Positions 13,937-43,259 of a DNA stretch of 64,000 bases are shown piece after piece. Origin of the DNA: Ruminococcus sp. (lineage in GTDB: Bacteria > Bacillota > Clostridia > Oscillospirales > Acutalibacteraceae); assembly GCA_017416065.1 (NCBI GenBank), contig JAFQDM010000018.1:24830-88829 (forward strand), given 5' to 3'. How positions within the stretch are numbered: the stretch's first letter is position 1; the number at the start of each line of letters is the position of its first letter. The notes beneath the pieces are model-generated. The model searched no databases, had not been told where the DNA came from, and saw only the letters and a list, made by a program, of their open reading frames with translations. The translations under genes and the position numbers were made by a program.

Positions 13937-13975
13937 GAGAAATTGCATTGTTTTATGCAATTTCTCTTTCTTTTT
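13937..13975 (+). terminator. Strong intrinsic terminator after uvrA
   Basis: GAGAAATTGCAT pairs with ATGCAATTTCTC (12 bp) around a short loop and is followed by TTTCTTTTT. It lies only 25 bases before the start codon of the phage-like cassette. I see no promoter in those 25 bases. Confidence 0.85.
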
Positions 13976-14000
13976 GGGGCAAGGGTGGGAGGTGTAATCT

Positions 14001-16166
14001 ATGATTACAATTCTGAATGGAAAACTTACCATTCCCGAAAGCGAAAGATTCATCGGATTTGCAGGGGATAATCTTGCGCGCACAATTGAATTTCTTCTTT
14101 GCGGTCAAAAGGAAGCAGACCGCATCTACCGTCTCTACCTTACCTTTGACGACGGTACCGTTAATCATTTTGTGCTGCCTTCTGCCGTTACCAAAGACGG
14201 AGTACTCCTTACCTGGGATGTTCAGAAGGGACACATCTTCAAAAGCGGCAACGTTCGCGCTCAGATCAAGGCTTTCTCCGGTACCGGAGTTGTGTATCAC
14301 ACAAGGCCTGACACGTTCATTGTCGGAAACAGCGCCGAGTTTTCCGACTTTTTCGGCACGGAAAATTCAGAGTTTCTTGAGTATGAGGAAATGCTCAATA
14401 ACCTGAAGGCTCAGGTGCAGGAGATATGCACCCTGGCACCTTACATAGGTGAAAACGGCAATTGGTATATCTACGATGCAACCAAGGGTGAATACGTCGA
14501 CAGCGGACGCTCTTCCTATGCAGAGGGTCAGACCATAACGGTGGACCAGACCTACTCACCCAAAAGCGAGAATCCTCAAAGCGGCAAGGCTGTGGCTCAG
14601 GCTGTGGCAGGGGTGAAGCTTTCCGAGGGCTCGGTGGAGCTTAAGCATTTTTCAGATGAACTGCTTATCCCCGAAGACAAGCTTGAGGGAATCTATTGGG
14701 AAAATGAGAATATGCTCTCCGTTATGTCCTATGAATTTCTGGATGAGCTGATGCAGGCAGAATGCGACAAAACAGGCGGCTGGAGCAAGACCGTCTTCCG
14801 CCTCGGATTTATTAGCTCCTTCCCTCAGTACAGCCTTGTGGGCTCAGATGAGTACATAGGAATTACGGATACGGTTTCAGACAAGCTGTTGCTTATTAAC
14901 ATTGCCAAGGGAGAGCTGTATACCTACAAAAAGGGAAGCGGTACAATTGTGAAAACCACCTCTTCTTCAGAGCTTTCCGAAGGCTGTGTGGAGCTTAAGC
15001 ATTTCTCAGAAGAGCTGCTTATCCCCGAAGATAAGCTGGAGGGCATTTATTGGGAGAATGAGAATATGCTCTCCGTTATGTCTTATGAATTGCTCAATGG
15101 GCTGATGCAGGCAGAGTGCGACAAAACAGGCGGCTGGAGCAAGACCGTCTTCCGCCTCAGATTCATAAGTGCCTTTCCTCAGTACAGCCTTGTGGGTTCG
15201 GATGAGTACATTGGAATCACGGACACGGTCTCAGACAACCTTTTGCTTATTAACCTTGTAAGCGGTGAGCTTTTCACTTACAAAAAGGGCAGCTCCTCCA
15301 TAGAAATATCCGCATCATCAGGCGCACAGGTGGACCTTGACTACAACCCCGACAGCGAAAATGCTCAGAGTGGAATTGCGGTGGCTCAGGCGCTGGAAAA
15401 CGCAGAGGCTAAAATAGCGGAAGGCTCAGTGGAGCTTAAGCATTTTTCAGAAGAACTGCTTATCCCCGAAGATAAGCTTGAGGGCATCTATTGGGAGAAT
15501 AAGAATATGCTCTCCGTTATGTCCTTTGAGCTCTTAGACGGATTGTTGCAGACAGAATGTGACGAAACGGGAGGCTGGAGCAAAACCATCTTCCGCCTTA
15601 AGTTTATCTCCGCATTTCCTTATTACGACATTTTGGGTTCAGATGAGTATATAGGAATTACGGATACGGTATCAGACAATCTTTTGCTTATTAACCTTGT
15701 AAGCGGTGAGCTTTTCACCTATGTAAAGGGCAGCAGCTGTATTCTGAGAGCAGGTGCAGAGGCTGAGGCGGACAAGACCTTTGTAAATGCAGGCACCTTT
15801 GCAAGTTACTCTGAGCTTGACAGCTATGATTTCGAAGCAGGCAAGCTGTACTTTTTTGAATTAAACGGTTACTTCCCGAATAATATTGTCAATATCTCCA
15901 ACCCGAGCAATCAGATCAAAGGGTATTTTACCGGTATGTATAATTCGAGTTTGAAGCAACTCTGGTTCAGAATACCATATAGTGATTCTACAACCTATTA
16001 CCTTCACAATATTGGTAACGAGTCAATTGCCACTCACGTTTCTCACACCGATGAATATAACTCGGATAACGGAAACCAGCCCATTTCGGGCAAGGGAGTT
16101 GCACAGGCGCTTTCTCCCATATACAGTATGCTGAGTGGAGTGGAACAGCTCCTTGCAGGAATATAA
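14001..16166 (+). CDS. Phage tail-fibre/baseplate-type protein with triplicated domain
   Basis: 721 residues. The N-terminal 115 or so residues (from MITILNGKLTIPESERF to YHTRPDTFIV) resemble the immunoglobulin-like N-terminal domain of phage baseplate upper/tail-fibre proteins. The fibre linker motif YSPKSENPQSGKAVAQA occurs at about 185, again near 448 (YNPDSENAQSGIAVAQA) and in altered form near 686. Three closely similar repeats of about 116 residues (207-324, 325-440, 472-587) each begin with EGSVELKHFS or a close variant. The C-terminal 130 residues are unrelated to the repeats. The function, probably surface or receptor binding, is inferred from motifs and from the lysin and holin neighbours. 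A GGGAGGTG site precedes the ATG. Confidence 0.7.
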   Translation: MITILNGKLTIPESERFIGFAGDNLARTIEFLLCGQKEADRIYRLYLTFDDGTVNHFVLPSAVTKDGVLLTWDVQKGHIFKSGNVRAQIKAFSGTGVVYHTRPDTFIVGNSAEFSDFFGTENSEFLEYEEMLNNLKAQVQEICTLAPYIGENGNWYIYDATKGEYVDSGRSSYAEGQTITVDQTYSPKSENPQSGKAVAQAVAGVKLSEGSVELKHFSDELLIPEDKLEGIYWENENMLSVMSYEFLDELMQAECDKTGGWSKTVFRLGFISSFPQYSLVGSDEYIGITDTVSDKLLLINIAKGELYTYKKGSGTIVKTTSSSELSEGCVELKHFSEELLIPEDKLEGIYWENENMLSVMSYELLNGLMQAECDKTGGWSKTVFRLRFISAFPQYSLVGSDEYIGITDTVSDNLLLINLVSGELFTYKKGSSSIEISASSGAQVDLDYNPDSENAQSGIAVAQALENAEAKIAEGSVELKHFSEELLIPEDKLEGIYWENKNMLSVMSFELLDGLLQTECDETGGWSKTIFRLKFISAFPYYDILGSDEYIGITDTVSDNLLLINLVSGELFTYVKGSSCILRAGAEAEADKTFVNAGTFASYSELDSYDFEAGKLYFFELNGYFPNNIVNISNPSNQIKGYFTGMYNSSLKQLWFRIPYSDSTTYYLHNIGNESIATHVSHTDEYNSDNGNQPISGKGVAQALSPIYSMLSGVEQLLAGI
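14619..15760 (+). repeat. Three near-identical coding repeats of about 350 bp in the fibre gene
   Basis: Units begin at about 14619, 14973 and 15414. The first two are directly adjacent; the third follows a 96-base spacer that holds another copy of the fibre linker motif. Long stretches are the same at DNA level (around the ELLIPEDKLEGIYWEN and GSDEYIGITDTVSD segments), which suggests recent duplication and possible copy-number change by recombination. Confidence 0.85.
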
Positions 16167-16178
16167 GGGGGTGGTTTT

Positions 16179-16664
16179 GTGAGCATTGCAAATGAGATAA
16201 GCAGGATCAAAAATGCAAAGGAAGTTATAAGGTCAGCAGTTGAAAAGCGAGGTGTCACACTGGAGGACAGTGTGCTTGTGGATTCTTATGCGGCGGTGAT
16301 AGAAAGCGCTCCGTATGCTGTAAAGGGCTCCTTTACTCCCGAGGCGGACACTCAGGTGTTTTCCATCAGCGGTCTGCCCTTTGCTCCAAAGTCGATATAT
16401 TTGGTGAGCAACGAGCTGTACAGCGCAGGGGTGGAAAACGGAGTAATTCTTCTCACAAACGGAGACGGCCTCAGGGGCAGTTGTGTATCCTACGCAGACG
16501 GAACCAGATTGACCTCCTTTATATCAGAGAATTCCTCTTTGGATGTATGGAGTGCAGACGGCTACGAGATCGACCTCTCAAAATCATCCTCGACAATTTC
16601 AGGCTGGGCATTCAAGGCAGGCTACACTTATGAATATTATATAACGGGAGGATTTTCAGAGTGA
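16179..16664 (+). CDS. Phage tail-associated protein, small
   Basis: 161 residues, GTG start after a GGGGGTGG site, 12 bases behind the fibre gene. The N-terminus (SIANEISRIKNAKEVIRSAVEKRGV) is a helical segment of the kind often found in small tail proteins encoded next to phage fibre genes. The rest (from about residue 45) is beta-rich and ends in GWAFKAGYTYEYYITGGFSE. The exact function is unknown to me; assignment rests on position between a fibre gene and a lysin. Confidence 0.55.
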   Translation: MSIANEISRIKNAKEVIRSAVEKRGVTLEDSVLVDSYAAVIESAPYAVKGSFTPEADTQVFSISGLPFAPKSIYLVSNELYSAGVENGVILLTNGDGLRGSCVSYADGTRLTSFISENSSLDVWSADGYEIDLSKSSSTISGWAFKAGYTYEYYITGGFSE

Positions 16665-16828
16665 TCTACTACGCAAAAGACAACAAACTGTTTTGTACTG
16701 AGGTGGCGGTCTCAGACCAAAGCTTTACTCAGATTACGCAGGAAGAATACACCGCGCGGCTGAGTATCGCTGTGAGATCCCGCGAAAAAGGAACTCCCGT
16801 TACAGATTCCCACCTGTGGGAAGACTGA
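16661..16828 (+). CDS. Small phage-type ORF of 55 residues
   Basis: A GTG start at 16661 overlaps the stop of the previous gene as GTGA. A GGGAGG site at 16646-16651 sits nine bases upstream. The product starts MIYYAKDNKLFCTEVAV and ends HLWED. Size and place, between tail-fibre and endolysin genes, are those of the small XkdX-like proteins of Bacillota phages, but I see no diagnostic XkdX motif, so homology is unproven. The 4-base overlap and good site support real translation. Confidence 0.6.
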   Translation: MIYYAKDNKLFCTEVAVSDQSFTQITQEEYTARLSIAVRSREKGTPVTDSHLWED

Positions 16829-16841
16829 AAGGAGGGATAAA

Positions 16842-17801
16842 ATGGCAGAAATAAAATGTATTGACGTTTCCGAATGGCAGGGAAAGGTGGACTTCAAAAA
16901 GGTGAAAGCCGCAGGCTACTCCCATGCGATTCTGCGTGCAGGGTTTGGTCGATCAAGCTCTCAGGTGGATGCAGAGTTTGAGCGTAACTACAAGAACGCT
17001 AAGGCGGCAGGAGTAAAGCTGGGCGTCTATTGGTACGCCTACGCGGTGGATAAGGCAGATGCCGTAAAAGAGGCGAAGGCGTGCCTTGAGGTAATAAAAG
17101 GTAAGGTGCTGGAGCTTCCCGTGTTCTACGATATGGAAGAAAGCTCTATGAAAAGCCTGGGCAAAACAGCCCTTACCGCCATGGCGACCGCTTTTTGTGA
17201 AGAGATCAAAAAGGGCGGATTTGCCTGCGGTGTTTACGGCAATCCCGACTGGTTTACAAACTATCTTGATTATAAAACCCTCAGATCAAAATATCCCATC
17301 TGGCTTGCACAGTATTACAAAGAAGCTCAGCTTGAGTGCGACGTCTGGCAGTATACCTCAGAGGGTAAGGTGAACGGCATCTCAGGCAATGTAGACCTTA
17401 ATATCATCTACAACGAGGAGATCATCCAAGAGGAAAAGACCGCAAAGCCGAAAGGTCCTGCTCCTAATGCAGAGCTTAAAACGGGCGATGGGGGAATTGG
17501 AGTGCTGTGCTTTAAGTACCTTGTGCAGATTGCAGATGATATGGGTCTGCTTCAGTACGGAATGACCCTTGGAAACAATAAGTATTCCAAAGGTACACAA
17601 AACGCGGTGAAGGCTCTGCAAACGCAGATGGGACTTAAATCTACGGGTACGGCAGATGAAAGCTTTGTCAATAAGCTATACAAGCTCATAACCGAGAACT
17701 ACCCTCTTGCAGGGGATGCAAACGGTGACGGCAAGGTGGATGTAAGGGATGCAACAGAGATACAGAAGCTGGTTGCAGGAATTGAGGCGGCAGATGAATA
17801 A
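16842..17801 (+). CDS. GH25 endolysin with a C-terminal dockerin repeat
   Basis: 319 residues with no signal peptide, as expected for a holin-dependent lysin. Residues 1-200 form a GH25 muramidase: D8 in CIDVSEWQG and the D97-x-E99 pair in FYDMEES are the catalytic acids, and the domain closes with QYTSEGKVNGISGNVDLNI. Residues about 210-285 look like a peptidoglycan-binding helical domain (NKYSKGTQNAVKALQ). Residues 291-314 (GDANGDGKVDVRDATEIQK and following) are one calcium-binding dockerin repeat, very like those in the secreted dockerin proteins elsewhere in this window; a normal type I dockerin has two. The gene overlaps the holin start by eight bases. Confidence 0.88.
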   Translation: MAEIKCIDVSEWQGKVDFKKVKAAGYSHAILRAGFGRSSSQVDAEFERNYKNAKAAGVKLGVYWYAYAVDKADAVKEAKACLEVIKGKVLELPVFYDMEESSMKSLGKTALTAMATAFCEEIKKGGFACGVYGNPDWFTNYLDYKTLRSKYPIWLAQYYKEAQLECDVWQYTSEGKVNGISGNVDLNIIYNEEIIQEEKTAKPKGPAPNAELKTGDGGIGVLCFKYLVQIADDMGLLQYGMTLGNNKYSKGTQNAVKALQTQMGLKSTGTADESFVNKLYKLITENYPLAGDANGDGKVDVRDATEIQKLVAGIEAADE

Positions 17802-18288
17802 ATTTATTTTGGCATTTGGCGAAAACTACTCAACCCTGAAGATATATGTTACTTCAGCTATTGCGGCTGCAGGAGGCTTTGTTGCAAAGGCCTTGGGGGG
17901 AATAGACCCCCTGCTTACTACCCTTGTGACTCTTATCATCCTTGACTACGTGACGGGATTTATAAGAGCCATCTACAAAAAGGAGCTCTCAAGCTCCAAA
18001 GGCTTCAGAGGAATTATTAAGAAGGTTTTTATCCTGCTTACTGTGGGGCTTTCCGTAAGCCTGCAGAACGTGGTCCCTCAGGGAATACCCCTCAGAGAGA
18101 TCACCGTGCTGTTTTTTATCTCAAACGAGGGGATATCTATCCTTGAGAACACGGCAGGAATAATCCCACTTCCCAAAAAACTGCGCTCAGTGCTTGCGCT
18201 TATAGAGGAAAAGTCGCAAGAGCTCTCAGAGAATGAGGCAGAAAACTCCGATATCGAATCATCGAAGCAGGCAGAAGAACAGGGATAA
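17794..18288 (+). CDS. Phage holin (holin 4 / TcdE-like family)
   Basis: 164 residues from the ATG at 17794, which has a GAGG six bases upstream and overlaps the lysin stop as ATGAATAA. Three or four membrane segments lie at roughly 16-36, 38-58, 76-95 and 102-120. The family marks DYVTGFIRAIYKKELSSSKG, GIIKK and ISNEGISILEN are present. The C-terminal tail is charged and Glu-rich. The holin would release the signal-less lysin across the membrane; related holins (TcdE) also release toxins in Clostridioides. A strong terminator follows. Confidence 0.88.
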   Translation: MNKFILAFGENYSTLKIYVTSAIAAAGGFVAKALGGIDPLLTTLVTLIILDYVTGFIRAIYKKELSSSKGFRGIIKKVFILLTVGLSVSLQNVVPQGIPLREITVLFFISNEGISILENTAGIIPLPKKLRSVLALIEEKSQELSENEAENSDIESSKQAEEQG

Positions 18289-43139: not shown

Positions 43140-43259
43140 CAGGGCTCACTCCTTTCGGCTTTATAACTTCTGATTTTTCATTTTAATTATACTCCTTTTC
43201 TGCGTTAATTCAATACCTTTGCATAATTTCTTGCAATACTTATTCCGGAGGGGAATTTT

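Follow-up and report, generated by a model that had tools for sequence, protein, structure and literature searches.

A fibre-and-lysis cassette between uvrA and thyX in Ruminococcus sp., probably part of a dispersed phage-derived particle of the gene transfer agent kind

The uvrA–thyX cassette and its leader

The window analysed here is a stretch of 64,000 nucleotides from Ruminococcus sp., which lies on contig C15 (JAFQDM010000018.1) of the metagenome-assembled genome (MAG) G000 (1.86 Mb, 36 contigs, 85% complete). Between uvrA and thyX it carries a cassette of five genes (Table 1), which according to our analysis is probably "operon II", with the fibre and lysis functions, of a domesticated phage particle of the gene transfer agent (GTA) kind whose genes are dispersed. 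We favour this reading because one leader stands at the start of both operons of the putative particle and of further phage-type genes, and because the distances of the terminase TerL and of the fibre track those of UvrA, together with purifying selection.

All five frames are open and, as the sequence-only reading of this DNA had described, the genes are tightly spaced, being separated in order by 12 nt, a 4-nt overlap, 13 nt and an 8-nt overlap. The endolysin matches Glyco_hydro_25 (4.6e-33) and PG_binding_1 (2.1e-5), and the holin matches Phage_holin_4_1 (2.9e-32). Gene 2 gave no significant family match, and the sole one of the fibre is to phrog_25888 (1.9e-6), a family of unknown function; the names "fibre" and "tail-associated" were assigned by position and conservation pattern, with no curated family behind them. 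The sequence-only reading had also stated that capsid, portal and terminase genes are missing, which holds around the cassette, where none was seen, but not for the MAG, whose contig C22 carries all three. Integrase and replication genes were likewise not seen by eye in the cassette, in the cluster on contig C22 or in the flanks inspected, no dedicated integrase search having been run. A single dockerin-like repeat (window positions 17709-17777) ends the GH25 lysin, as it does the lysins of genomes G028, G045, G020 and G010; it matches half a dockerin domain (1.6e-3, under the Pfam cut-off) and is shorter than a canonical two-repeat dockerin needs.

Table 1. Features of the cassette, in window coordinates (aa, amino acids; ORF, open reading frame)
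Feature	Position	Strand	Remarks
Leader hairpin and T-run	13937..13975	+	Core TTGCATTGTTTTATGCAA at 13943-13960; same element 5' of terS on contig C22
Shine-Dalgarno (SD) motif of fibre gene, GGGAGG	13987..13992	+	
Fibre / receptor-binding-like protein (inferred)	14001..16166	+	721 aa; ~145-aa N-terminal domain conserved; three ~95-aa repeats (by eye) at about 14630-15770; C-terminus varies among genus mates
Gene 2, tail-associated (inferred)	16179..16664	+	Same-site homologue in L102, L103
55-aa ORF	16661..16828	+	GTG start; same-site homologue in L102, L103
GH25 endolysin	16842..17801	+	PG_binding_1 and one dockerin-like repeat
Holin, Phage_holin_4_1	17794..18288	+	ATG at 17794 chosen; listed ORF starts at ATG 17749

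The core of the leader is an 18-bp palindrome, TTGCAT-N6-ATGCAA, and the hairpin with its T-run stands 5' of the fibre start whatever the genomic site of the gene. At least 11 of the 12 half-site bases are conserved at 35 of 38 fibre leaders and at 49 of 52 testable terS genes of the same genus (40 of them perfect), and at most 9 of 12 at all six terS genes of other genera or of phage type. These counts cover 38 of the 39 fibre genomes, G056 (L084) being without a complete N-terminus in the ORF call, and leave aside the terS leaders of G044, G058, G091 and G029 as too short. The spacer between the half-sites is six bases long in all 35 fibre and all 49 terS matching leaders, and 33 of the 35 fibre leaders have an SD-like motif that starts 25-26 nt past the palindrome. 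When the pattern TTGCAT-N4..7-ATGCAA was sought at large, 138 sites were found in 36 genus genomes, compared with 15 for the reversed control, and 22 compared with 16 in 23 other genomes.

G000 itself contains six sites, and the reversed control gave no site there. Unrelated reading frames enclose two of the six; the other four stand 5' of phage-type genes, namely the fibre gene of the window, the terminase cluster and two DnaD-like ORFs (L205, 3422-3781; L208, 3334-3687). Both DnaD-like ORFs match, in PHROGs, only the N-terminal ~115 residues of a helicase loader, and we consider such truncated DnaD-like proteins to be cut-down replication initiators and candidate regulators. Among 20 chosen leader stretches, 14 are followed by terminase, DnaD-like, second-fibre or MuF genes and one by a DUF6291 gene, two fall within genes, and the remaining three are unclear; apart from the two DnaD-like ORFs of G000, assigned with PHROGs, gene types in this set were assigned by resemblance. 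In L211 (G016:C9, 2075-2985) the palindrome stands 5' of a gene for a MuF-ribonuclease fusion (Ribonuclease 3.9e-13; Phage_Mu_F 9.5e-6, under the cut-off), which is followed by a Barstar gene (3.6e-20), apparently a toxin-immunity pair within the regulon of the particle. A further palindrome with one mismatch occurs in the window at 43219-43236 and is probably due to chance, at least two matches being present in 9 of 100 shuffled sequences.

A role of the leader as a plain uvrA terminator was rejected because it is also present at other loci, among them, in G016, G025 and G011, the interval that separates terS from a gene on the opposite strand. The base pair flanking the stem covaries, being paired in 74 of 83 leaders (A-T in 45 and G-C in 28, with related sequences counted repeatedly; the G002 leader was too short for this count), so that the hairpin is likely to be under constraint. 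A core that does not vary and a spacing that is fixed would also be expected of a DNA operator close to a promoter, and both an attenuator and an operator/promoter are candidate roles.

The head and baseplate cluster on a separate contig

On contig C22 of G000, at about 44.9-56.1 kb (L225), 16 named genes with unbroken frames follow the same leader in the order terS, terL, portal, protease/scaffold-like, decoration, capsid, two connectors, 246-aa protein, LysM protein, gpD-like, gpV-like, gp25-like, Baseplate_J, gpI-like and 156-aa protein. After them come alr- and polA-like genes, phage-derived packaging and capsid genes being here part of the host chromosome. Matches were obtained to Terminase_2 (4.5e-16), Terminase_6N (4.8e-22), portal phrog_30703 (8.5e-119), major head phrog_3922 (2.1e-93) and Baseplate_J (4.6e-49), and the capsid matches PF25209, not PF05065; no family match was obtained for gpD, the connectors and the 246-aa protein, whose names reflect position. 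The description of the cassette as being "without a phage" does not survive this result, as structural genes lie elsewhere in the same MAG behind the same leader. The parts of the putative GTA are dispersed in G000 over contigs C15 (cassette), C22 (head cluster) and C4 and C25 (leader-bearing DnaD-like ORFs).

In each of the 26 clusters of the genus that were mapped, two of them truncated at contig ends, the matched genes follow one and the same order. In the 24 uncut clusters the distance from terL to gpJ is 9,456-9,964 bp, and the gap between the second connector and the lysM gene, where a tape measure or sheath gene would be expected, measures 816-970 bp and holds no ORF longer than 272 aa in any of them. 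The sheath family PF04984 was not found in G000 and, among the 36 genus genomes searched, occurs only in G026, on a contig different from that of its head cluster. The terL gene was detected (E ≤1e-30) in 56 of 60 genus genomes, or 55 of 60 without G051, whose terL is a phage-type match (51%), and in 5 of 38 others. It is single-copy except in G030 (two copies) and G058 (two contig-end pieces).

The same dispersed genes might instead build a killing particle of the PBSX/tailocin type that transfers no genes. The order of the baseplate genes is PBSX-like, the fibre C-termini change fast, and in G016 the leader stands 5' of the MuF-ribonuclease and barstar genes. We nevertheless deem this reading unlikely, since neither a sheath gene in G000 nor room for a sheath or tape measure in any of the 24 clusters was found, terminase, portal and capsid, which a pure tailocin would not need, are under selection, and none of the four gene-linked leader sites in G000 is followed by a recognisable toxin gene.

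Distribution, inheritance and selection across the genus

A relative of the fibre N-terminal domain, one match each, was found in 39 of the 98 genomes searched, that is, in G000 and 38 of its 59 genus mates, and in none of the 38 genomes of other genera; the domain is without a stop in all 39. The fibre gene adjoins uvrA in 11 genomes including G000, lies beside an aromatic-biosynthesis operon in 10 and beside other genes in the remainder (neighbours named by eye). A scan of GTDB returned 26 loci, probably overlapping with the 98 genomes and so not independent of them, whose titles all name Ruminococcus, Oscillospiraceae, Clostridia, Clostridiales or Eubacteriales, and 14 of which name an animal, always a ruminant. 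The gene order of the cassette does recur in relatives, as the sequence-only reading had proposed to look for, with uvrA-fibre-GH25-holin-thyX in 8 of the 26 loci and homologues of genes 2 and 3 at the site in two. In ten genus mates, among them G026 with its fibre gene elsewhere, a gap of just ~140-310 bp separates uvrA from thyX. This short gap and the position of the structural genes elsewhere speak against the recent, clean prophage deletion that had been offered as an alternative, and a full prophage was not seen in any of the mapped uvrA-site loci.

The lysis genes vary by genome, the lysin being of the GH25, CHAP or Amidase_3 type and the holin of the Phage_holin_4_1, phrog_937 ("hemolysin", of XhlA look), phrog_443 or phrog_297 type. 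Downstream of uvrA and on the same strand, a lysin-type match is present in 10 of 40 uvrA loci without a fibre gene (that of G002, part of a 502-aa protein, is doubtful). The palindrome is perfect in 6 of these 10 loci and in none of the other 30, which argues that fibre and lysis genes are separable parts under the same signal. A second fibre family (L223, L224, L369-L377) stands behind the palindrome in G007 and G015; its later part matches tail-fibre PHROGs (1.6e-26), and relatives of its N-terminus are also found in G033, G036, G059 and G018.

A holin-lysin pair could also serve as a secretion module of the TcdE-like, type 10 kind that exports a leaderless, fibre-like adhesin or enzyme. 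In the PaLoc of C. difficile, a gene for a large protein is accompanied by the holin gene tcdE and the lysin gene tcdL, and there, as here, the site is a short gap in relatives; the cassette differs in being no toxin locus and in having companion capsid and terminase genes. By eye, fibre and lysin have no obvious signal peptide, and the fibre C-termini of some genus mates resemble enzymes of the SGNH hydrolase type. Lysin and holin types, on the other hand, are swapped between genomes as in phage lysis, and the leader is common to terminase and capsid genes, which makes a secretion module very improbable. Such readings were dropped after the terminase and capsid genes had turned up, and the gene content would fit the release of particles by lysis better than the secretion of dockerin proteins, for which the sequence-only reading had suggested a test.

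Protein distances were compared with those of UvrA, which was obtained from 51 of the 60 genus genomes (G023, G047, G040 and G052 gave no match at the cut-off, and G028, in which uvrA is cut by the start of the contig, was omitted from the tree). The distances of the fibre N-terminus correlate with those of UvrA (Spearman 0.47, 35 genomes), above all 999 permutations, and still do so after removal of the clade that diverges most (0.38 in 28 genomes, against a permuted maximum of 0.29); the two trees have most clades in common. For TerL, compared without the phage-type G030p and G051, the correlation is 0.49 in 47 genomes, again above all 999 permutations (permuted maximum 0.24). Over the first 190 residues of the fibre, dN/dS is 0.06-0.26 in six close pairs, a rough estimate as dS is often near or above 1. 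The cluster genes give 0.02-0.23 in five close pairs, with several dS values above 1 and gpW of G025/G056 saturated; pieces interrupted by a stop where they match, as is terL of G025/G056, were excluded. Cassette and cluster are inherited vertically under purifying selection, with the fibre recombining as well. The claim that the frames are kept by selection is borne out by these ratios, by the open N-terminal domains and by the full cassettes found at uvrA-thyX in relatives.

Cassette and head cluster could alternatively be unrelated prophage remnants that decay slowly and independently, considering that several genus mates hold other phage genes and that the site of the fibre differs between clades. 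We regard this as hardly credible because the two share one leader, occur genus-wide and nearly always in single copy, show no decay, and the cluster is collinear and under purifying selection.

Several observations weigh against the dispersed GTA reading. The MAG is incomplete, and cassette and cluster are on separate contigs. Searches with PF06605 (tail), PF04984 (sheath) and PF05065 (capsid), each in 59 genomes, gave nothing in G000. The leader is missing or degenerate at the terS genes of G018, G038 and G053 and at 3 of the 38 fibres. The fibre occurs in 39 of 60 genus genomes, or in 44 if the second family is counted, the two families being weakly alike by profile (probability 35%). Neither family is present in 16 genomes, several of which are nearly complete and have terL (G022 and G046, 99%; G053, 97%), while G057 (100% complete) is without both fibre families and terL; of the decay or loss in relatives that had been foreseen as counter-evidence, only the loss of the fibre was encountered. 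The nearest neighbour of the fibre agrees with that of UvrA in 16 of 35 cases (permuted mean 1.1, maximum 7) and that of TerL in 27 of 47, and the TerL proteins of G032 and G034 are 99% identical yet the first 190 residues of their fibres differ by 26%, which indicates that the fibre also recombines. Particle production, packaging, transfer and co-expression are, besides, predictions from genome sequences.

Comparison with known systems and proposed function

The kind of system is already known from FpGTA of Faecalibacterium, for which a Nature Communications article of 27 January 2026 (PMC12946183) describes two chromosomal operons, 40-nm capsids and ~9-kb DNA. Operon I (10.5 kb) encodes TerS, TerL, portal, scaffold and capsid, and operon II (5.5 kb) baseplate, tail fibre, receptor-binding protein, holin and endolysin; tails were not identifiable and replication genes were not found (PMC12946183). 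The article calls FpGTA the second Gram-positive GTA after PBSX and mentions GTA-like packaging of 4.6-kb fragments in Ruminococcus callidus, for which the sections consulted name no GTA operon (PMC12946183). In host and operon layout our system resembles FpGTA, in that it belongs to Gram-positive gut Clostridia and has head genes apart from the fibre and lysis genes, here on C22 and C15. It differs in that the baseplate genes (J, I, gp25, gpV and gpD types) lie within operon I, the leader is common to the operons, and the fibre and lysis genes are split into further loci in some clades.

PBSX of Bacillus subtilis resembles our system in the order of its baseplate genes and in having XhlA/holin/lysin-type lysis genes, whereas here there is no sheath and no room for a tape measure, and the loci are dispersed. 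The alphaproteobacterial RcGTA and CcGTA also have dispersed loci under common control, which the leader would suggest here, but they belong to another phylum, and the baseplate genes found here are of the contractile-tail type. CcGTA is driven by activation and anti-termination (PMC11150451), a possible parallel to the hairpin and T-run of our leader.

Among the open-access papers found in searches on GTAs, no title or abstract opening describes this leader or a GTA operon of this genus, and the variant itself appears to be new. New are a second genus treated in depth, the shared leader, the fast-changing fibre and its relocation between sites, as well as the presence of this leader at genes for truncated DnaD-like proteins and at a MuF-RNase/barstar pair.

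In the mechanism that we propose, the leader would be switched on by a common signal, probably in a small share of the cells. The products of operon I would then form a small capsid whose tail is very short and has no sheath, and the terminase of this operon would pack host DNA. The fibre is predicted to attach through its conserved N-terminus, leaving the variable C-terminus to select the recipient surface, and holin and GH25 lysin would open the producer cell and release the particles. It is also conceivable, though we advance this tentatively, that a GTA of this make exists genus-wide, with head, fibre, lysis and accessory genes scattered, a regulon readable from the palindromic leader, DnaD-like regulators, a modular fibre that decides which recipients are reached and a MuF-RNase/immunity pair in some of the species.

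In IMG/VR, TerL has at least 596 relatives (596 among the 600 matching stretches listed). Among the matches listed, 80 loci were kept, mostly contigs of 4-15 kb, and the leader (at least 11 of 12) is present in 9 of the 46 with enough upstream sequence. Pattern scans of IMG/VR with three N-terminal alignments found no relatives of the fibre N-terminus, and a single weak, partial match was obtained among 50,697 phage records. These results speak against the notion that the cassette is a source of fibres and lysis functions for unrelated resident phages, satellites or islands, which would agree with the modular fibre and with the phage genes of some genus mates; as own head genes also exist, we give it very little credence. 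Two INPHARED entries named "Bacteriophage sp." from human faeces, L378 (MT835508) and L379 (MT835952), contain related capsids and the head cluster, and judged by eye from their neighbours, for example ribosomal-protein genes, they are bacterial chromosome. Given such mislabelled phage records, caution may be called for with virus catalogues and with prophage counts in gut Clostridia.

Gram-positive GTAs are almost unknown. If the dispersed GTA reading is true, a species-rich ruminococcal genus of the gut would carry a dispersed DNA-packaging system in nearly every species, and the leader would make it simple to look for the parts of this system by sequence and would give access to the way it is regulated.

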